Assembly: GCA_020725865.1 (NCBI GenBank)
Contig: DYEC01000013.1
Span: forward strand, 62,001-126,000
Origin: Anaerolinea sp.
Lineage (GTDB): Bacteria; Chloroflexota; Anaerolineae; Anaerolineales; Anaerolineaceae
DNA: 64,000 nucleotides
Reading direction: 5' to 3'
Shown here: positions 24,051 through 42,960 of the stretch, in pieces
Position numbering within the stretch: position 1 is the stretch's first letter
How the letters are laid out: each line of letters opens with the position of its first letter
Notes under the pieces: generated by a model
Databases searched by the model: none
Told to the model about the DNA's origin: nothing
The model's input: only the letters and a program-made list of their open reading frames with translations
Position numbers and translations under genes: made by a program

Positions 24051-24185
24051 GGATTTGTCATCTAATCGAAAAGACTGCTTAACAATTATTTCTGTGCTAT
24101 GATTAATATGCTATCCCGCATGGGATGGCAACAGTGAGGAAAAATTTCTTATTACAAAATCAATTTTTTGCGGGATCATCGTAGA

Positions 24186-26171
24186 ATGCACAAACGAAAA
24201 GGTATTGTTGCTTCTTCTCTCCAAATGCCGCCCTTCGCTGCCGCGGTTCTTCTTTTGTCTCCATTATTCCTTTTGTTTTTCCGGCCATTTCCTGCGATTA
24301 AAAATCTCACGAGCCGCCCTGAAGACATCCGTGTAACAGCCACCCGCGTGGCAGATATCTTACCCGGTTCGGGAGGATCTTACCCGGGTGATTTTGCCGC
24401 AATTGGCGATACCCTGTTCTTCCGCGCCAATGATGGCACACACGGGTATGAGTTATGGAAAACATCCTCGCCTTATGATGCGGCACATACCAAACTGGTA
24501 GCAGATATTCGGCCTGGTAGTGATAGTTCCTTTCCAGAAGAATTATCCGTTATCGACGATGTACTATTCTTCCGTGCCGATAACGGCATCAGCGGCCAAG
24601 AGCTTTGGAAATGCGAACCACCTTATGAACGTGCTTATCAGGTAGCCGACATAAACCCTGGCGCCAATGATGCATCACCAACAGAGTTTCTCAAAATCGG
24701 CAATACATTATTTTTCCAGGCAGATGGTGGGAATGGAGCTGAACTTTGGAAAACTTTTCCGCCTTACAATACCGCCGTACAGGTTGCTGACATCTGGCCT
24801 GGACCAGGTAGTTCCTCGCCGCGCCACTTAACTTCAATTGGCTGGATTTTGTTTTTCAGCGCTGATGACAGCTCTGGCCGTGAACTCTGGAAAAGCGAAC
24901 CGCCCTATGATTTCACTTCAACCGTGCGAGTAAAGGACATTTTTCTTGGTGGTTCAGCCGACCCTGATGAACTCCTGCGCGTCGGTACAACTCTATTTTT
25001 CACCGCTTATGATGAGGCTGGAAAGCGAGAAATCTGGCGCACAAACCCACCTTATGATCAATATAGCACTGAACGGGCAAACGAAATTAAGACAATGTAT
25101 CCTACCCTCGCTACCGATCTGGCAGCAATAGGTGAAACCGTATTTTTCACTGGCACGCTTAGCCTGAGTGGGTTTGAGTTACGCAAGATTGTTCCGCCAT
25201 ACACCAGCACACAGATTAGCGGCGTGATGGATATCTACGAGGGCTTTACTGGTCCTTTCCCCAACAGTTCCTTCCCCGCCGATAAAACTCCCGTAGGTTC
25301 CACGCTGTTCTTCACTGCCAATGACGGCTTACACGGCATTGAGCTTTGGGGTAGTGTTCCACCCTACACCAGTGCTTTTCTGGCAAAGGACATCAATCAT
25401 GGTTCAGCAAGCTCTGCCCCGCGTGAGCTAACACCCATTGGTACATCATTATATTTTACAGCCGTTGATTCGAATGGACGCCAGATCTGGCGTACTTCTC
25501 CGCCTTACGATGAAAACAGCGTAGTTCGCGTTACAGACTTCAACCTTCCATCTACCAGCTCAGAACCCAATCGCTTGTTTGCCTTGGGACGCACATTATT
25601 CTTTACCGTCAGTGATGAATATGGTAATGAGTTATGGAAGATGGAAGCTGACTCGCCGGCGCTGCCTGCTACTGGCTTTGCCCCAGGAAAAATCACCCGA
25701 CTGGCTCCGCCGCCCCGTGAAGACATGTACACTCTTGTATCGGACATGCAGCTTGCCATTCCAGCGCTGGGTGTTCGGGTACCGCTGGTTGGCGTACCAG
25801 TCAGCGACACGGGCTGGGACGTGGCATGGCTGGGACAACAAGCTGGTTACCTGATAGACACAGCATTTCCTACTTTTCCCGGGAATACGGTTATCGCTGC
25901 ACATGCCTATCTGCCAGACGGCAACCCAGGTCCTTTTGCCAATCTCCAGCGTTTACGGTGGGGAGACCAGATCAATATCTACGCTTGGGGACGAATCTAC
26001 ACTTATGAAGTACGGGAATCGAGACGCATTGCGCCCGAGGATACCAGTGTAATGAAGCATGAAGAATATTCCTGGTTGACGCTGATCACCTGTCAGGGGT
26101 TCGACGAGGAATCGGGAAGTTATCGTTGGCGATATGTGGTTCGGGCAGTATTGACACAGGTCACAAATTAA
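24186..26171 (+). CDS. ELW-repeat surface protein with LPATG motif fused to a sortase domain
   Basis: 661 aa from ATG 24186. Basic N-terminus, then one TM/signal segment (about 15-35), then about nine repeats of roughly 48 residues with ELWK.xPPY and DTLFFRANDG-type strands (ELWxxDGT-like, probably beta-propeller). Next is LPATGFAPG (about 493-501), a sortase sorting-type pentapeptide, then a C-terminal sortase domain: IPALGVRVPLVGVP, catalytic His in NTVIAAHAY (about 573), GPFANLQRLRWGDQI, catalytic Cys in LTLITCQGF (about 636), Arg in YRWRYVVRA. So motif and enzyme lie in one chain. Extracytoplasmic. Start uncertain: TTG 24168 is an in-frame alternative; no good Shine-Dalgarno. Confidence 0.8.
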   Translation: MHKRKGIVASSLQMPPFAAAVLLLSPLFLLFFRPFPAIKNLTSRPEDIRVTATRVADILPGSGGSYPGDFAAIGDTLFFRANDGTHGYELWKTSSPYDAAHTKLVADIRPGSDSSFPEELSVIDDVLFFRADNGISGQELWKCEPPYERAYQVADINPGANDASPTEFLKIGNTLFFQADGGNGAELWKTFPPYNTAVQVADIWPGPGSSSPRHLTSIGWILFFSADDSSGRELWKSEPPYDFTSTVRVKDIFLGGSADPDELLRVGTTLFFTAYDEAGKREIWRTNPPYDQYSTERANEIKTMYPTLATDLAAIGETVFFTGTLSLSGFELRKIVPPYTSTQISGVMDIYEGFTGPFPNSSFPADKTPVGSTLFFTANDGLHGIELWGSVPPYTSAFLAKDINHGSASSAPRELTPIGTSLYFTAVDSNGRQIWRTSPPYDENSVVRVTDFNLPSTSSEPNRLFALGRTLFFTVSDEYGNELWKMEADSPALPATGFAPGKITRLAPPPREDMYTLVSDMQLAIPALGVRVPLVGVPVSDTGWDVAWLGQQAGYLIDTAFPTFPGNTVIAAHAYLPDGNPGPFANLQRLRWGDQINIYAWGRIYTYEVRESRRIAPEDTSVMKHEEYSWLTLITCQGFDEESGSYRWRYVVRAVLTQVTN

Positions 26172-35067: not shown

Positions 35068-36567
35068 CTAGATCACCACTCGTCTGGGTAGAAGGTTCTT
35101 TAAACGTTGCGAGGTGATTTTACCCAATCCAATGAATTGGCTATGCGCATCTTGCACTAAAACGACCCTGCCAGATGGGTATTCTCCCGGATGGAAATCC
35201 CGCAAATCCTCGCCGCGCAGCCAGGCAGGCCGATATTCATCCGGTAACGGATAGTGCCCACGAAGAAAACTTTGGTAAAAACGCGTTACCCACTCATGGG
35301 CAGGAATGAATCCTTGAGGGGTCTTTTCACCCAACGCCATCCCCAATGTGTGGACAGGCATGCTACTGAACTTACTAAAATACCGATTTGGAAAAGCATA
35401 AATCGTCTCCCTCCGACGCCAAAGCGACAGATCATATTCAACCAACAAAGAACCCAAATCAAAGCCGTAGTCATTCTCAAAATTGCTTATTAGCGAAATT
35501 ATCTCTCGCTTCTCCAATGGTAAAAATCCGACGCGCTGCAATGAAAAAGCTGATTCAAAAACCACTCTCTTACCGCTGTTCATTGGTGATAGCTTAGTCA
35601 AGTGTGCCGCAAAGAATCCTGCAGTATGATAAAGGTGCGGCCAGAGACGGACTGCTCGTTCTACTTGTGGATCATACTGTTTACACTCTTCATTAACAAG
35701 ACCCGGCGCAGGTACAGGCAACAAACGATTGGCATCTTCAACCTGAACAGCACTTCCATATTGCCTGAGGATTCGATCCAGTACACCTTCATTCTCTTCC
35801 GGCGTCAATGTACAGGTTGCATACACCACCTGTCCACCCACTTTGACTGCTCGCAGGGCACTTTCCAGCATACGAGCTTGTCGTTGCGCCAGCATATTCT
35901 GCTCGCGTTCGCTAATCGGACGCATGGGGTGTGATTCGCTGCTGCGTAACCCCTGCATACTGCAAGGAGCATCCAGTAAAACTGCGTCAAATGTTTCAGG
36001 AAACCAACTACCGAATCGCTCACCGGGAAAATTTGTCACCGCGACATTTACCGCCCCCCAGTTTTGCAAAACCAATCTCAGGGCAGTCAGACGCGCAGCG
36101 CTGGAATCATTGGCAATCACCAAACCCCGATCTTCAGAACGGCTGATCAAGTGAGTGGTTTTCCCTCCGGGCGAAGCCGCCATATCTAGTATCAGCGGGT
36201 GATCTAGATGTTTGAAGGTAAACAATTCAGCCGGCAACATGGAGGCCGCTTCCTGGATATAGTAATACCCAAAGCGGTGCTCCACCGTCTGGCTAACTGA
36301 TACATTTGCCTCTTTAACCCACCAACCCAACGGGCAAAAAGGAACAGGATCTAATTGCCAGCTATACCGCTCTGCCCACTGAAGCAAATCCTGAGTGGTT
36401 GCTTTGAGTGGATTAAGGCGTATGGCAGGATACAGCAGAGACTCAAGATCAGATAATAAATTCGCAAAACTCTGAGGGGATAACAAATTACGAAAACGCT
36501 CCAACGCAGTTTGATACGCGTCGGCAGGTGAGAATTGCCCCAGAATAGAACTACGCTTACGGCCCAT
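35068..36567 (-). CDS. RsmF/NSUN-type RNA m5C methyltransferase
   Basis: 499 aa. SAM-dependent C5-cytosine methyltransferase of the NOL1/NOP2/Sun family. Seen: AIRLNPLKA at the N-terminus, MAASPGGKTTHL (motif I), LLDAPCSMQG with the release Cys (motif IV), YATCTLTPEENEGV with the nucleophilic Cys (motif VI), and a C-terminal extension of about 180 residues with a PUA-like end as in RsmF/YebU, which modify 16S rRNA C1407. Start at ATG 36567, overlapping the previous stop by one nucleotide in TGATG. tRNA as substrate is the alternative. Confidence 0.85.
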   Translation of the reverse strand: MGRKRSSILGQFSPADAYQTALERFRNLLSPQSFANLLSDLESLLYPAIRLNPLKATTQDLLQWAERYSWQLDPVPFCPLGWWVKEANVSVSQTVEHRFGYYYIQEAASMLPAELFTFKHLDHPLILDMAASPGGKTTHLISRSEDRGLVIANDSSAARLTALRLVLQNWGAVNVAVTNFPGERFGSWFPETFDAVLLDAPCSMQGLRSSESHPMRPISEREQNMLAQRQARMLESALRAVKVGGQVVYATCTLTPEENEGVLDRILRQYGSAVQVEDANRLLPVPAPGLVNEECKQYDPQVERAVRLWPHLYHTAGFFAAHLTKLSPMNSGKRVVFESAFSLQRVGFLPLEKREIISLISNFENDYGFDLGSLLVEYDLSLWRRRETIYAFPNRYFSKFSSMPVHTLGMALGEKTPQGFIPAHEWVTRFYQSFLRGHYPLPDEYRPAWLRGEDLRDFHPGEYPSGRVVLVQDAHSQFIGLGKITSQRLKNLLPRRVVI

Positions 36568-37382
36568 CAGCTTTTTTGAATACAAAAAACTACTTCACTA
36601 TCAAACATCAATTCAGTCACTACCCAGGACAACCCTGCCAGACTACGTTTCATCAGTGCTCGCTGACGTTCTACTATACTGTGATGTCCAGTGAGGTCCT
36701 TGACTGGGAGTGAAACCAACAACCACTTTACCCGCAAAGCACGCCAGAAATCACGGTTACATCCACGCCGCCGCTGTTCAAAACGATGTGCCTCCTTAAA
36801 GAAAAATGCCACCTCTGCCTCAACCTTTGGTGGATCAACCAGAACATCGCGTACTTCAGCCAGCGGCTGCAATCCAATTAAGCTGAAATACTGGTTAATC
36901 AACGCCACGCGTGGATGGTGAATATCATAGGCGTAATAACGTACCGTTGTCGGAAGCATCATCCAGGAAAAAGCAAACGGGTTCATTCCACAGGCAAGAT
37001 CAAGAATAGAATCCGGCTGCCCCGTAATAGTAAAGAGCTGTTCATAAAAAGCCCTTAAATCCGTAAGTCGCTCGCGTGTCGAGGCATGAGAACGTAGCAA
37101 CGCTTCGCAGACCGCTCTAACCTGTTGTGGGTCACCGCTGGCGAAAGCATTCAACAAATCCTCACTTGCCCGCTGATAGTCCACATCTCCCAAATATGGG
37201 GCAACAATATTGTGTAATTTCTGACGCACTGCCTTAAATGCTTCTTTAGCAGTACGATATTTGGGAATTTCTTGCTGAATTAAGTCGCGCACGGTCACTT
37301 CCGGTAACCCAAGCTCACAGTATTTGCGCGAGTTTAGCAATTCATGAACGAAGCGGTCAACATCTTCCTGAGCCTTCATCAT
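36567..37382 (-). CDS. ArmA/Rmt-family 16S rRNA methyltransferase-like, paralogue 2
   Basis: 271 aa. Matches the aminoglycoside-resistance methyltransferase family that makes m7G1405 in 16S rRNA (ArmA, RmtA-H, producer enzymes). Seen: helical N-terminal domain about 1-95, SHASTRERL (98-106), ILDLACGMNPF (126-136, SAM site), YYAYDIH, and FFFKEAHRFEQRRRG. The family block SFPxxSLGGRRKGM is degraded here to SLPVKDLTGHHS, so activity or target may differ from the adjacent paralogue. Starts 1 nt after the paralogue's stop; its own stop overlaps the RsmF-like gene. Confidence 0.75.
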   Translation of the reverse strand: MMKAQEDVDRFVHELLNSRKYCELGLPEVTVRDLIQQEIPKYRTAKEAFKAVRQKLHNIVAPYLGDVDYQRASEDLLNAFASGDPQQVRAVCEALLRSHASTRERLTDLRAFYEQLFTITGQPDSILDLACGMNPFAFSWMMLPTTVRYYAYDIHHPRVALINQYFSLIGLQPLAEVRDVLVDPPKVEAEVAFFFKEAHRFEQRRRGCNRDFWRALRVKWLLVSLPVKDLTGHHSIVERQRALMKRSLAGLSWVVTELMFDSEVVFCIQKS

Positions 37383-37383
37383 T

Positions 37384-38190
37384 TCACCGGTTCAGCACAA
37401 AAACCAGTTCGCTGGGAAACTCATAACGCTTGACTTGCCAGGGCAATTGAGAAATAAGATTGCGAAAATGGGTTTCATAATTCTCCGGCATTCCCTTTCG
37501 ACGCCCGCCCAGACTGTGCGCCGGAAAAGACACCACTATATGTTCTGCCTGAATGCTCTGCAACAGCAATAAGACAATATTTTTATCCAATTGCTCTAAA
37601 CAAGGGATCACTTTTAGCAAGAGCGCAACCTGTACCTGATATGGTGGACTGCCTTCCAGTAAATCCCACCACTCCACATTCCCGTTTTGCTTTAGATGAT
37701 TCAGAAACCCATTAAGAAAAGATACCATATCCCTGTATATATCGCAGGCGAGATAAGTCGCTTCCGGTGCAAGCGGCATCCATGGCAAAGCCAGAGGATT
37801 CAACCCACATGCTAGGTCAAGCACAGAATACACTGGTGCTAACGGTTCAAAAAGCGTTTCATAAAAGGTTTCCAAGATCGGTAACCGTTCACGCGTGGAA
37901 GCATGTTGTTGCAGGATATTTCGACAATAAGCAGATAAGCGAGATTTATCTCGTGGATCAATTGTAGCCAACTCTGCCTTCCAGCGTTCATAAGGGAAAT
38001 CTTGCTCGAAATATGCCCCGCCCACCTGGTAAATTTTATTGCGTGTCGCCTTGACCACTTCCCTGAAATTTCGTTTCCTCTGTAGCATTTGAGCTGCTAC
38101 ACGCCGGATCAAACCCGGATGCACATCCTGATAAGCAGCCCCCTTTTGCACTTCACGAACGATCTGCTCCAGTAAATCTGCGGTATTCAT
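37384..38190 (-). CDS. ArmA/Rmt-family 16S rRNA (G1405-N7) methyltransferase, paralogue 1
   Basis: 268 aa. Closer to the family pattern than its neighbour: HASTRERL (96-103), VLDLACGLNPLALPWM (123-138), YLACDIYRDMVSFLN, VALLLKVIPCLEQ and VVSFPAHSLGGRRKGM with a following NYETHF. Known members methylate N7 of G1405 in the decoding site, giving high-level resistance to 4,6-linked aminoglycosides. ATG 38190 overlaps the TGT-like stop by 4 nt. Resistance here is inference; a housekeeping or other RNA target is possible. Confidence 0.78.
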   Translation of the reverse strand: MNTADLLEQIVREVQKGAAYQDVHPGLIRRVAAQMLQRKRNFREVVKATRNKIYQVGGAYFEQDFPYERWKAELATIDPRDKSRLSAYCRNILQQHASTRERLPILETFYETLFEPLAPVYSVLDLACGLNPLALPWMPLAPEATYLACDIYRDMVSFLNGFLNHLKQNGNVEWWDLLEGSPPYQVQVALLLKVIPCLEQLDKNIVLLLLQSIQAEHIVVSFPAHSLGGRRKGMPENYETHFRNLISQLPWQVKRYEFPSELVFVLNR

Positions 38191-39473: not shown

Positions 39474-40310
39474 GTGAGTAATCAAGAGCCGGCTATAAAC
39501 ATGAATAACTATCGTTATCCAAGTGAACAGGTCATCCTCTTTGGAACAGTTTTTCTAATCCTGGTTGTGCTTTTGCTGGCAGCCGGTACAACTCTATGCG
39601 TCTTGCCCCTGTTTTTTCTGGTAATACTGATATTGTCTTATGCCACCAGCCAGTCCCACCATCGAGCGTTGATTGCCCAAGCAAAACACGTGACCAGCGA
39701 ATCACTGCCTTCTCTGGCAAAGCTGGCACAGGAATGTGCGCGCAAGTTACAACCTGGTCCGACTCAGCTATTTGTTGTCCCGAGTCGGATTTTGAATGCC
39801 TACACCTTCGGACTGGAAAGCCCTAAAGTTATTGTATTGTACAGTTCACTTTTTCAGGTCATGGACGCCGATGAATTACGCTTTATTATTGGGCATGAAA
39901 TGGGGCATGCTGCTTTAGGACATACCTGGCTGAACACCCTTCTTGGAGGTATGGCGGGGGTCCCGCCCTCTTTTGGTGCTGCTATCCTTTTCGCACTGGC
40001 ATTTCGTCTCTGGAATCGTGCTTGCGAATACTCAGCAGATCGCGCCGGCTTGCTGGCGTGTGGTAGACTGGATAAAGCCATCTCCGCTCTGGTCAAGCTG
40101 GTTGATGCCCGTATTGATACGCCAGAAGAGATGAAAGAAGCTCTCGAAATTCTGGAGCAACAGGACGACACACTCGAAGGCATGTTGATAGAAAGCACTG
40201 CAACACACCCATTAATTGGGAACCGCATCGAGAAACTAAGAGAATGGGCAGCTTCCAGCGAATATCAACGTCTTCAGGCACTGATCAATCGAAATGCTAC
40301 CAAAATCTAA
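39474..40310 (+). CDS. M48-family membrane metallopeptidase (HtpX-like)
   Basis: 278 aa. Two TM helices near the N-terminus (about 15-50), zinc motif HEMGHAALGH (about 141-150) and third ligand region CEYSADRAGLLA (Glu), as in HtpX and other M48B peptidases that degrade damaged membrane proteins. GTG start at 39474 preceded by AGAGGG at 8 nt; ATG 39501 is possible. Ends overlapping the convergent DUF3048 gene by 4 nt. Confidence 0.82.
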   Translation: MSNQEPAINMNNYRYPSEQVILFGTVFLILVVLLLAAGTTLCVLPLFFLVILILSYATSQSHHRALIAQAKHVTSESLPSLAKLAQECARKLQPGPTQLFVVPSRILNAYTFGLESPKVIVLYSSLFQVMDADELRFIIGHEMGHAALGHTWLNTLLGGMAGVPPSFGAAILFALAFRLWNRACEYSADRAGLLACGRLDKAISALVKLVDARIDTPEEMKEALEILEQQDDTLEGMLIESTATHPLIGNRIEKLREWAASSEYQRLQALINRNATKI

Positions 40311-41650
40311 CGAGCCGCTTCTGTCTGGGTAACCGGTGGATAAAAATACACTGCCCAGATTCCAGAACCGGGCTGTGCCTGACTCAACAGCTTTTTATAA
40401 TCAGTAGTATCAATAACCTCGCGATATGTTGTGTATAGCGGGATAATTTCAACCCAGGTCTGTCCAGGATGCAGGGGAATAGGGGTTCCTTCTTTATCCA
40501 CAAAGCGTATAGGTCTCAGACGCCCAGTTTTTCTTTCATATTCGGTATTTCCAGTTGTCCAGTATATCTCATACATCCTGCCATCCCGAAATAGTAATGC
40601 AGGACTTCGAGTAATATACATCAAGTCGATGTTAAACAAAGTGGCATCAAAAAACGTGTAATTGGCAAACATCACCACAACATTTTCGAACGCCAGTGTC
40701 CGGCCAGTCAAGCGATCAACATGCGGCACAATAGTGCTCCCATCTTCTTCATCTTGCGATCGCAAATACGCCCGTAACTGCGGATCATACCGCCAGAAAA
40801 CCTGATCAGTGTAATGAAAGGGTATCCACAATCCATTGCCCTTTTCCCCACCCGGCGGCGGCTGCGCATCAAACCGCAAACCGTACAGATGTGGTTGCCC
40901 TAAACTGGGTTTCCAATTCTGTGCCAGACGGATCAAATCAGAAATAGCTATGTGCGCTGTATTGACATTATCTGCATCAGTATCACCAAAAACAAGATAG
41001 TATTCATCCAGGTAAGGTAGCACCCGGTTGGATGCAGAAGCAAAAACAAGAAAGCCTTTATAAAGCAAACGAAGACTTTCATAGGGCAACCGACCCGAGC
41101 GAATCGGTCCAATTTCAACGGGATATTCTTCTCCATCAGGCGTTTGCATTGCAACGGGCGGATAGTCACCGTAGAACACTGCCAGAAAGCGCGACGCTCC
41201 TTCCCCAATATAAAGCTCAAAAACAAACGAGGCGTAGGATAAACCACTCTGAGGGCGAGCCGTGCGTGGCGAATTAGAAATAGAAACCAGCGCCGGTGGC
41301 AATTCCAGTAATGTAGGATTCTCAACTTTTAAACCAGTCAATGGATTCACATCAGATGGAAAGATATCCGGTCCAACAGACTCAGGCGCGGTAGTGCTTG
41401 TGGGAATAGATGTTATTATTGTTTGGGACGGCAATGTAGCTGTATAAGTCAACCTCGGCAGGTAAGAAATGCTCGTTGCCGAGATAGCCAACGGCGTCAT
41501 TGTTAAGGTGGATGAAGTTGGTTTCGAACAACCAACAATAAAGACGAACCCACTCCACAGCACAAAAAATGCCAGCCGCAAAACATAAACACGGGCGGCA
41601 TGCAAGCCGCCCGATGTACTTTTTCTTACCTGTCCAGCACTAAATTTCAT
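40307..41650 (-). CDS. DUF3048 lipoprotein, paralogue 2
   Basis: 447 aa. Lipoprotein signal: long basic n-region, hydrophobic core and lipobox FIVGCSKPTS (Cys about 41). After a Ser/Thr-rich linker come DUF3048 (YerB-like) blocks: NPLTGL, RPQSGLSYASFVFELYIGEG, FLAVFYGDYP, IGPIRSGRLPYE, and a C-terminal domain with FENVVVMFANY and LLFRDGRMYEIYWTT. Extracytoplasmic, function unknown. Start overlaps the stop of its paralogue by 4 nt (ATGA). Confidence 0.82.
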   Translation of the reverse strand: MKFSAGQVRKSTSGGLHAARVYVLRLAFFVLWSGFVFIVGCSKPTSSTLTMTPLAISATSISYLPRLTYTATLPSQTIITSIPTSTTAPESVGPDIFPSDVNPLTGLKVENPTLLELPPALVSISNSPRTARPQSGLSYASFVFELYIGEGASRFLAVFYGDYPPVAMQTPDGEEYPVEIGPIRSGRLPYESLRLLYKGFLVFASASNRVLPYLDEYYLVFGDTDADNVNTAHIAISDLIRLAQNWKPSLGQPHLYGLRFDAQPPPGGEKGNGLWIPFHYTDQVFWRYDPQLRAYLRSQDEEDGSTIVPHVDRLTGRTLAFENVVVMFANYTFFDATLFNIDLMYITRSPALLFRDGRMYEIYWTTGNTEYERKTGRLRPIRFVDKEGTPIPLHPGQTWVEIIPLYTTYREVIDTTDYKKLLSQAQPGSGIWAVYFYPPVTQTEAAR

Positions 41651-42960
41651 TGCCTGCGAATCGCCTCACATACGCTTTGATCTTCGATCATGGAAGAGGC
41701 ATAATAACGCATTGCCCAGTTGCCTGAACCCGTTTGCGGTTTATTCAACAAATCAAACAAGACTTCGGTATCTGCAGTTTCCCAATAGGGTGTAGCCAAA
41801 GGAACCAAGTGCACCCAGGTTTGACCAGGTTTGAAGGGAAACGGCTGTCCCATTGCATCTATAAACCGAATGGGGCGAACCTTGCCAGTAGTCTTCTCAT
41901 AATCTTCATTCTTTGTTGTCCAGAAAATTTCATACATCTGACCATCTCTGAACAATAACGCTTTCCCCCGGTCAATATACATCAAATCAACATCAAAAGC
42001 ATACTCAGTGCAAGCGCGGTGATTGGCGAACAACACAACCACATTCTCAAAGGTCAATGGTTCACCCGTCAGACGGTCTGTTGCCTGAACGAACGTTTTA
42101 CCATCTGCTTGATCTTGATAACGATGATAGGCACCGCTGGCATGATCATAGCGCCAGATAATTTGATCATAAGCATTGTACATGAACCAGAAGCGAGGCG
42201 CCGCTTTTCCACCTTCAGGCGGCGTTGTATCAAAACGCATGACACTAATATCTGAAGGCTGTACGCGAAATTTTGAAGCGCGCGCAATATCCTCGAGGCG
42301 GGTAACACTAATCATAGCGCTGTTAATATTGTCCGCATCTGATCCAAAGTAATTGGTATATTCGCCAAGATTTTGAGCCACTCCAGCATACGCCGAAGCC
42401 ATCACCAGAAAACCATTGTAAGCTTTGCGCAAATGCTCATATGGTAAACGTCCCGAACGAATCGGCCCAATTTGAGCATCATCGGAAGTTACCATGGAAT
42501 TTCCTGAAGGCTGACTGCCCAACGAATTTGCACCAGAGGGAAAATCTCCATAAAATAATGCCAGAAAACGGCTCATCCCTTCACCAATATACAGTTCAAA
42601 CACAAAGGGAGCAAAGGACAATCCCGCTTGCGGTCTGGCAGTTACTGGCCAGTTGGTGATCGAAACCAACGCCGGTGGAAGCTTTAAGTTGTCTGGATTT
42701 ACTGCTGGCAAACCCGTAAGCGGATTCATTGTGGGAATAACAGGGGTATTCATCTGGGCGGGTAAATTCTCCCGCGCCTGAACAGGAGTAGCAATGAACT
42801 CTGGCAGAGCCTGAACGATATTGCCTGAACTTTCCGGAGGTTTTACCGAAACTGAGGATGTATCAAAGTTTACTTCTGAACCCACTTGGGGCTTACCCAC
42901 AATTCCGCAGCCTTGCAACACAAACATCATCAAAGCTAGTAAAGCAAATCCCTTGTTCAC
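41647..42960 (-). CDS. DUF3048 lipoprotein, paralogue 1
   Basis: 437 aa. Clear lipoprotein signal MNKGFALLALMMFVLQGCG (Cys 18), linker, then the same DUF3048 layout as the next gene: NPLTGLPAVNPD, RPQAGLSFAPFVFELYIGEG, IGPIRSGRLPYEH, FENVVVLFANH, LLFRDGQMYEIFWTT. First gene of the pair. A tandem duplication is evident from collinear motifs. Function unknown; cell-envelope location is inferred from the lipobox. Confidence 0.83.
   Translation of the reverse strand: MNKGFALLALMMFVLQGCGIVGKPQVGSEVNFDTSSVSVKPPESSGNIVQALPEFIATPVQARENLPAQMNTPVIPTMNPLTGLPAVNPDNLKLPPALVSITNWPVTARPQAGLSFAPFVFELYIGEGMSRFLALFYGDFPSGANSLGSQPSGNSMVTSDDAQIGPIRSGRLPYEHLRKAYNGFLVMASAYAGVAQNLGEYTNYFGSDADNINSAMISVTRLEDIARASKFRVQPSDISVMRFDTTPPEGGKAAPRFWFMYNAYDQIIWRYDHASGAYHRYQDQADGKTFVQATDRLTGEPLTFENVVVLFANHRACTEYAFDVDLMYIDRGKALLFRDGQMYEIFWTTKNEDYEKTTGKVRPIRFIDAMGQPFPFKPGQTWVHLVPLATPYWETADTEVLFDLLNKPQTGSGNWAMRYYASSMIEDQSVCEAIRRQ

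Follow-up and report, generated by a model that had tools for sequence, protein, structure and literature searches.

The window, the 64,000-nucleotide stretch analyzed here from the Anaerolinea sp. assembly GCA_020725865.1 (contig DYEC01000013.1), carries a gene for a 661-amino-acid (aa) protein, the features of which are listed in Table 1. The open reading frame (ORF) has a TTG at 24168 (+) as an alternative start codon, and a clear AxA cleavage site is absent after the N-terminal hydrophobic segment when the sequence is read by eye. The ELWxxDGT repeat model TIGR04534 matches the protein in nine stretches with a whole-protein E value of 1.8e-77 (255.2 bits, against a cutoff of 65), the best stretch covering residues 75 to 122, and ELW-like cores are located at residues 89, 139, 186, 233, 282, 331, 386, 433, and 482. 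The C-terminal domain scores 79.4 bits with PF04203 (cutoff, 26.6) and 43.6 bits with TIGR01076 (cutoff, 39.35). The LPATG pentapeptide is followed by a linker and the sortase domain, not by a hydrophobic segment and a positively charged tail, and the chain stops a few residues past the domain with no C-terminal transmembrane segment. The fold score and the His, Cys, and Arg residues assign the protein to the sortase superfamily, and transpeptidase activity is predicted from its sequence. The NCBIfam models of sortase classes C, D, E, F, and GN gave 36.7 to 40.6 bits against cutoffs of 140 to 166, which by that measure places the protein in none of these classes, and three of its relatives also missed the same cutoffs. 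An earlier note on this DNA had described a hydrophobic segment, about nine ELW repeats, LPATG, and a sortase with His, Cys, and Arg, with motif and enzyme covalently joined in one polypeptide. Profile searches and alignments confirmed all of these parts, and the ORF and domain hits confirmed their covalent joining. Elsewhere in the window, a pair of similar neighboring ORFs, each about 270 aa long (36567 to 38190, minus strand), has what we take to be a resemblance to 16S rRNA-type methyltransferases, and the members of a second neighboring pair (447 and 437 aa; 40307 to 42960, minus strand) look, on reading, like paralogs and lipoproteins.

Table 1. Features of the 661-aa ELW-repeat protein gene with positions in the window
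Feature	Position	Strand	Basis
Entire gene for the 661-aa protein (ELW repeats, LPATG, and a sortase at the C terminus)	24186..26171	+	ORF from ATG
N-terminal hydrophobic stretch (residues 14-38), either a signal peptide or a membrane anchor	24225..24299	+	Kyte-Doolittle
Nine ELWxxDGT repeats, propeller-like passenger	24408..25640	+	TIGR04534 and strands in full-length model
LPATG sorting pentapeptide, residues 493-497, then invariant Phe498	25662..25676	+	Pattern search and alignments
Linker, residues 498-522, looser conservation after FAP	25677..25751	+	Alignment
Sortase domain PF04203, residues 523-656	25752..26153	+	E value, 2.4e-22
Predicted catalytic His573	25902..25904	+	Invariant alignment column
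Predicted catalytic Cys636	26091..26093	+	Invariant alignment column
Predicted catalytic Arg649	26130..26132	+	Invariant alignment column

A profile search revealed five PF04203 sortases in the 3.12-Mb genome. The DNA pattern [LF]PxTGFAPG has exactly three matches in this genome and zero in the reversed control, and each of the three begins exactly 90 bases ahead of a PF04203 match. The three fusion open frames have lengths of 677, 1171, and 3746 codons. The passenger of the 1171-aa fusion contains DUF11, GEVED, and SpaA-type domains as identified with Pfam, and that of the giant 3746-codon fusion contains DUF11-like repeats recognized by eye. Fusions of ELW repeats to a sortase were also found in three other genomes (L195 from Ornatilinea apprima, L062, and L066, with TIGR04534 scores of 240 to 252 bits), and the motif is kept in all three of those examined, as LPDTGF, LPDTGF, and MPSTGF, respectively. 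A sequence or assembly artifact is ruled out by these fusions and the three in the genome itself, and a chance motif in the window protein is ruled out by the three exact 90-base placements, the empty reversed control, and the conservation described below. The same genome also encodes a 230-codon ORF with a classical LPQTGF-membrane-RRLRL tail (L224; G000:C4:20891), located about 9 kb from a 349-codon sortase on the same contig, and LPxTGF thus need not be read in cis only. In another region (L011; G000:C17:18500-24500), an 802-codon frame ending in LPVTGGKLR without a membrane tail is followed immediately, in the same reading frame, by a lipoprotein-type sortase ORF.

The conservation of the motif was analyzed with a query, A2, that contained the sortase domain alone, with the motif left out, and was built from six motif-bearing members. 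The genome collection scanned holds one genome per species for 84,980 species, and two peptide patterns were applied. The best 80 of 207 relatives yielded 78 loci with 81 sortase domains scoring >100 bits. All 81 domains carry xPx[TS]GF 22 to 26 residues upstream and keep the His and Cys signatures. Some of these loci repeat loci drawn from the related genomes analyzed below (e.g., L195 and L061), and L146 shows 100% identity to L049, a row of the query. Among the 79 distinct modules from these best 80 of 207 relatives, the P, G, and F of the motif are invariant, the Thr position is occupied by T in 75 and S in 4, and the first position is occupied by L in 67, I in 6, M in 3, and V, T, and P in 1 each. 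The x column accommodates 13 residue types with an entropy of 3.23 bits. The 15 columns before the motif are unconserved (3.1 to 3.8 bits), and GF is followed by a near-constant A-P and then by a looser linker preferring T, L, P, Q, P, and Y. Conservation therefore sets in with the motif's first letter, sparing only x, and the motif thus behaves as a sortase recognition site does. The earlier note had proposed comparing the pentapeptide with its surrounding linker across orthologs; apart from the free x, the motif turned out to be the most conserved part and stands above the linker overall, an outcome in favor of the note's proposal. The catalytic His, Cys, and Arg occur together with the motif in 55 of 55 rows of another set, which includes loci found through the motif (L006 to L008 and L042 to L055), and are also invariant in alignments. 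Tandem sorting motifs precede the sortase in L102 (two LPSTGF) and L076 (LPTTGF and then LPATGF).

Modules with a near-perfect motif are just 39% to 55% identical to the window module, which already contradicts the idea that the motif is a chance occurrence or a functionless relic of gene fusion. Motif-less sortase stretches of this kind do exist in short, passenger-less ORFs (L135 and L136), which look like decayed or cut-down copies and would fit a relic; as an account of the family, a relic is nonetheless scarcely credible.

A search of 31 related genomes by PF04203 alone gave 121 matches by our own count. Sortases scoring ≥140 bits against a model of the genome's three own fusions were assigned to the fusion clade. 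The motif was present at its usual place in 46 of 46 clade sortases, a set not independent of the 81 above, and in 0 of 53 lower-scoring ones, one of which is a cut-off fragment of a counted clade member; L006 to L008 and L042 to L055 were left out of this comparison, since it was the motif that had led to them. One of the 22 further rows has the motif (L255) and 21 are without it, including three that ended early at a contig end or stop. Rows in L041 and L105 had no match to the three-sequence model; the L105 row lacks PxTGF, and L041 was kept outside the motif counts. L255 (G017:C1:2606300-2610000) is a divergent 735-codon fusion in which IPQTGF, at about the usual distance from the sortase, is followed 16 residues on by LPSTGM and then by the sortase. 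In a tree of 98 sortase domains, which is based on few columns and has unsettled bootstraps, a 100/100 branch parts 43 others from all 46 motif-bearing domains. The clade side of the tree also holds nine rows without PxTGF at the usual place, namely, L090, which has IPDTGY 28 residues ahead of its sortase domain, and eight rows of genome G027. These nine rows and the motif-less L135 and L136 count against the self-sorting reading set out below.

A second architecture, in which a passenger, LPxTG or IPxTG, membrane segments, and a sortase share one ORF, was identified in the same order (L068, L093, and L100). L093 (G027:C65) and the 1250-codon ORF of L100 (G027:C134) carry IPVTGF or IPNTG at a greater distance ahead of the sortase, with membrane segments in between, and L068 (G026:C37), from the other side of the tree, consists of a part that is subtilase-like by eye, LPTTG, membrane segments, and a sortase. 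Motif and sortase thus share a chain in no fewer than two architectures, a point in favor of the self-sorting reading set out below. Several sortases, part of them without large passengers, lie in neighboring ORFs in L100 and L101 (G027:C134, about 10.5 to 29 kb).

Free-standing sortases in these genomes adjoin ORFs with a classical LPxTG, membrane segment, and basic tail (e.g., L106, L107, L110, L112, and L114), and together with L224 in the genome of the window these ORFs suggest that LPxTG is a working signal here. By our own reading, a sortase of the other clade, mostly free-standing, is also present in 17 of 17 fusion-bearing genomes of the 31, and the argument that cutting in cis is forced by a lack of other sortases therefore fails. 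For the same reason, the strongest rival explanation takes the motif for a genuine sorting signal that is cleaved in trans, either by a second fused copy or by a free membrane sortase, with the fused sortase linking passengers into fibre- or pilus-like polymers or processing further proteins. The free membrane and lipoprotein sortases and the classical LPxTG-membrane substrates of the same genomes agree with cutting in trans, as does a passenger with SpaA-type and DUF11 domains in L010. However, neither the spacing of 22 to 26 residues nor the conserved linker would be necessary for it, the His and Cys signatures are kept in all 81 motif-bearing domains from the best 80 of 207 relatives, and a structural model places the motif in the active site of its own chain. 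We consider cutting in trans unlikely, though a serious possibility.

The passengers are varied. In addition to the sortase, Pfam analysis of 20 fusions identified DUF11, GEVED, SpaA-type, FG-GAP, PD40, DUF5122 propeller-repeat, and TIG domains, several bacterial Ig-like families, a subtilase (L168), and a Ser/Thr kinase (L084). The last of these fusions (L084:1049-3439; G017:C1), from a genome of the same family, consists of a Ser/Thr protein kinase, one membrane segment, a long tail, LPRTGFAPG, and a sortase, and the whole kinase fusion of this type occurs in only one of the 31 genomes searched. Such a receptor-like kinase might tie its own tail to the envelope.

An N-terminal hydrophobic segment was found in 59 of the 67 rows with a complete 5' end, many of them with an A-x-A-like site by eye, and another hydrophobic segment precedes the motif in 7 of the 67. 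A hydrophobic stretch follows the motif in 6 of 136 rows (the sum of the sets of 55 and 81, repeats included), and in the 661-aa protein it falls on the first sortase strands. Among complete free-standing sortases, collected with a slightly laxer cutoff, 41 of 42 carry either a membrane segment or a lipobox N-terminal to the domain. By these counts, most fused enzymes have no clear membrane anchor apart from the N-terminal segment, and the passengers do not have the retention tail of ordinary LPxTG substrates. The earlier note had also envisaged the enzyme acting on other LPxTG proteins as a tethered hub, which in this simple form is unsupported since most members have a single N-terminal hydrophobic segment and no other. 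That most members have no membrane segment besides the N-terminal one would also suit a self-cut with water as the acceptor, in which the module is a device releasing the passenger to the medium. Sortases in general favor amine acceptors, though, and an unanchored secreted protein has no need of a release step, which makes release very improbable.

By title, 77 of the 78 loci from the best 80 of 207 relatives belong to Chloroflexota, including 55 from Anaerolineae or lower ranks, 20 labeled just Chloroflexi or Chloroflexota, 1 from Dehalococcoidia, and 1 from Herpetosiphon. The one other locus, from an Acidithiobacillus bin, is taken for misbinning. Among 301 genomes drawn from the phylum, matches with E values of <1e-60, which reach the motif end of the model, occurred by our own reading in 19 genomes, all from the same order, and the weaker matches were sortases mostly without the motif part. 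The strict nucleotide pattern for LPxTGFAPG was detected in 13 of 298 genomes of the class (reversed control, 1), a count that includes two genomes whose matches (L042 and L053) are not joined to a sortase of the fusion clade and that is otherwise a lower bound because APG varies. A scan of viral sequences found no relatives of the module. A scan of plasmids matched 4 records, one of which, a cold-seep Chloroflexota record annotated as a DUF11 protein, matched across 99% of the module. The sortase-bearing fusion is thus a widespread module with many passengers and not a peculiarity of one protein.

An AlphaFold model of the 189-residue module, predicted with 76 sequences, had a mean pLDDT of 90.5. 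The LPATGFAPG block scored 95, the two preceding blocks (20 residues) 57 and 63, and the next two, which form the linker, 83 and 69; the blocks of the sortase domain scored 93 to 98 from model residue 51 on. The model is confident about where the motif lies but not about all of the linker. The Foldseek/VIA-align matches of the module model include sortases, with VIA Z values of 15.6 to 18.1 for the sortase rows shown. The alignments with class C sortases start before the motif, with model residue 18 on residue 81 of 4g1h and model residue 13 on residue 82 of 4g1j, and a gapless count from the alignment end points puts L21-P22-A23 of the model on residues 84 to 86 of 4g1h and 90 to 92 of 4g1j. 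According to the accessible text of PMC3493515, the lids of the group B Streptococcus (GBS) sortases comprise Asp84-Pro85-Phe86 in SrtC2 and Asp90-Tyr92 in SrtC1 and overlap SrtA's LPAT peptide, the prolines being similarly placed. The model thus suggests, with moderate weight, that LPATG sits where class C sortases hold their pseudo-substrate lid, and docking in cis is predicted. The full-length model, predicted with 25 sequences, is little informative and speaks rather against docking than for it: LPATG had a pLDDT of <50 and was not docked, and parts of the sortase were also poor. Foldseek matched this model to assorted propeller proteins with low TM-scores, from which the passenger may be called propeller-like and nothing more. 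The self-processing in cis proposed in the earlier note is partly supported: motif and enzyme do lie in one chain, and recognition in cis is favored by the near-fixed spacing and the modeled docking.

The same modeled position would equally suit an inhibitory pose, in which LPxTGF is an uncut lid that, like the class C lids, blocks the active site as a pseudo-substrate and gives way to the real substrate. In keeping with this, removal of the lid-bearing N-terminal region raised GBS SrtC activity, as far as the available part of PMC3493515 describes. However, a lid does not need a Thr-Gly bond, and the class C lids described in that part of the source are Asp-Pro-aromatic. The Thr/Ser-Gly found in 79 of 79 distinct modules from the best 80 of 207 relatives, together with the free x, is the pattern of a substrate, and an uncut lid is therefore improbable.

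Taken with the alignments, the module model, and the comparison with known sortases, these results suggest that the 661-aa protein is probably a self-sorting surface protein with a single-use C-terminal sortase that cuts its own LPxTGF between Thr and Gly and joins the passenger to an amine in the envelope. The passenger, here the nine-repeat ELW propeller, would be exported N terminus first, and the C-terminal sortase domain would leave the translocon last and then fold. The LPATG motif, about 25 residues before the domain, would lie in the domain's own active-site groove at the place of the class C lid, and Cys636 would attack the Thr-Gly bond to form an acyl-enzyme between the passenger threonine and the enzyme. 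An acceptor amine, which may belong to the peptidoglycan (stem or cross-bridge) or to a lysine in a different surface protein, would then take the passenger, and the sortase domain, with GFAPG as its new start, would be shed, having been used once per passenger. The C-terminal sortase would thus take the place that a hydrophobic segment and a charged tail occupy in ordinary LPxTG proteins. We give even chances to the broader reading that many large surface proteins of Anaerolineae and relatives each bring a single-use C-terminal sortase, need neither a separate enzyme nor a membrane retention signal, and in at least one genome tie the outer tail of a transmembrane Ser/Thr kinase (L084) to the envelope.

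Sortases are known as separate enzymes that serve many substrates. Substrate and enzyme in one chain, kept across an order, would, if true, represent a new logic of cell-surface building, suggest how the poorly studied Chloroflexota anchor giant surface proteins, and provide ready-made self-ligating modules for protein chemistry. Among titles and abstract starts of the open-access literature on Chloroflexota and on fused, self-processing, or cis-acting sortases, no report of natural passenger-LPxTG-sortase fusions was found. The parts are known, and within the literature searched their arrangement as a conserved natural module appears to be new. Surface-protein surveys, as described in the accessible parts of PMC8286594 and PMC12617251, sought sorting motifs in the last 50 residues only, and rules of this kind would miss the whole class of fusions.

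The fusions share with conventional LPxTG signals and their separate sortases an LPxTG with a free x, located C-terminal to the displayed domain, and a His/Cys/Arg cysteine transpeptidase. They differ in that the enzyme lies in the same chain, in place of the hydrophobic segment and charged tail, and in the invariant Phe after Gly. With the class C sortases SrtC1 and SrtC2 of GBS, as far as the available text of PMC3493515 describes them, they share the fold and a segment before strand 1 that is modeled in the active site with Pro in register, but this segment reads as a complete LPxTGF, cleavable bond included, where the class C lids have Asp-Pro-aromatic; the fusions also lack a membrane segment at the C terminus and carry a large passenger on the N side. 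With the ELWxxDGT repeat proteins of TIGR04534, the window protein shares nine repeat stretches and a score above the cutoff, and it differs in being joined to a sorting motif and a sortase. The same order of parts is reportedly that of STEPL (sortase-tag expressed protein ligation), with the protein of interest first, then LPETG, and then the sortase. STEPL is an engineered single chain of these three parts in which, according to the accessible text of PMC11561820 (citing Warden-Rothman 2013), a nucleophile frees the protein of interest and becomes joined to it, which indicates that substrate and sortase in one chain are feasible. Unlike the man-made STEPL, the module described here is natural and is kept across a bacterial order.
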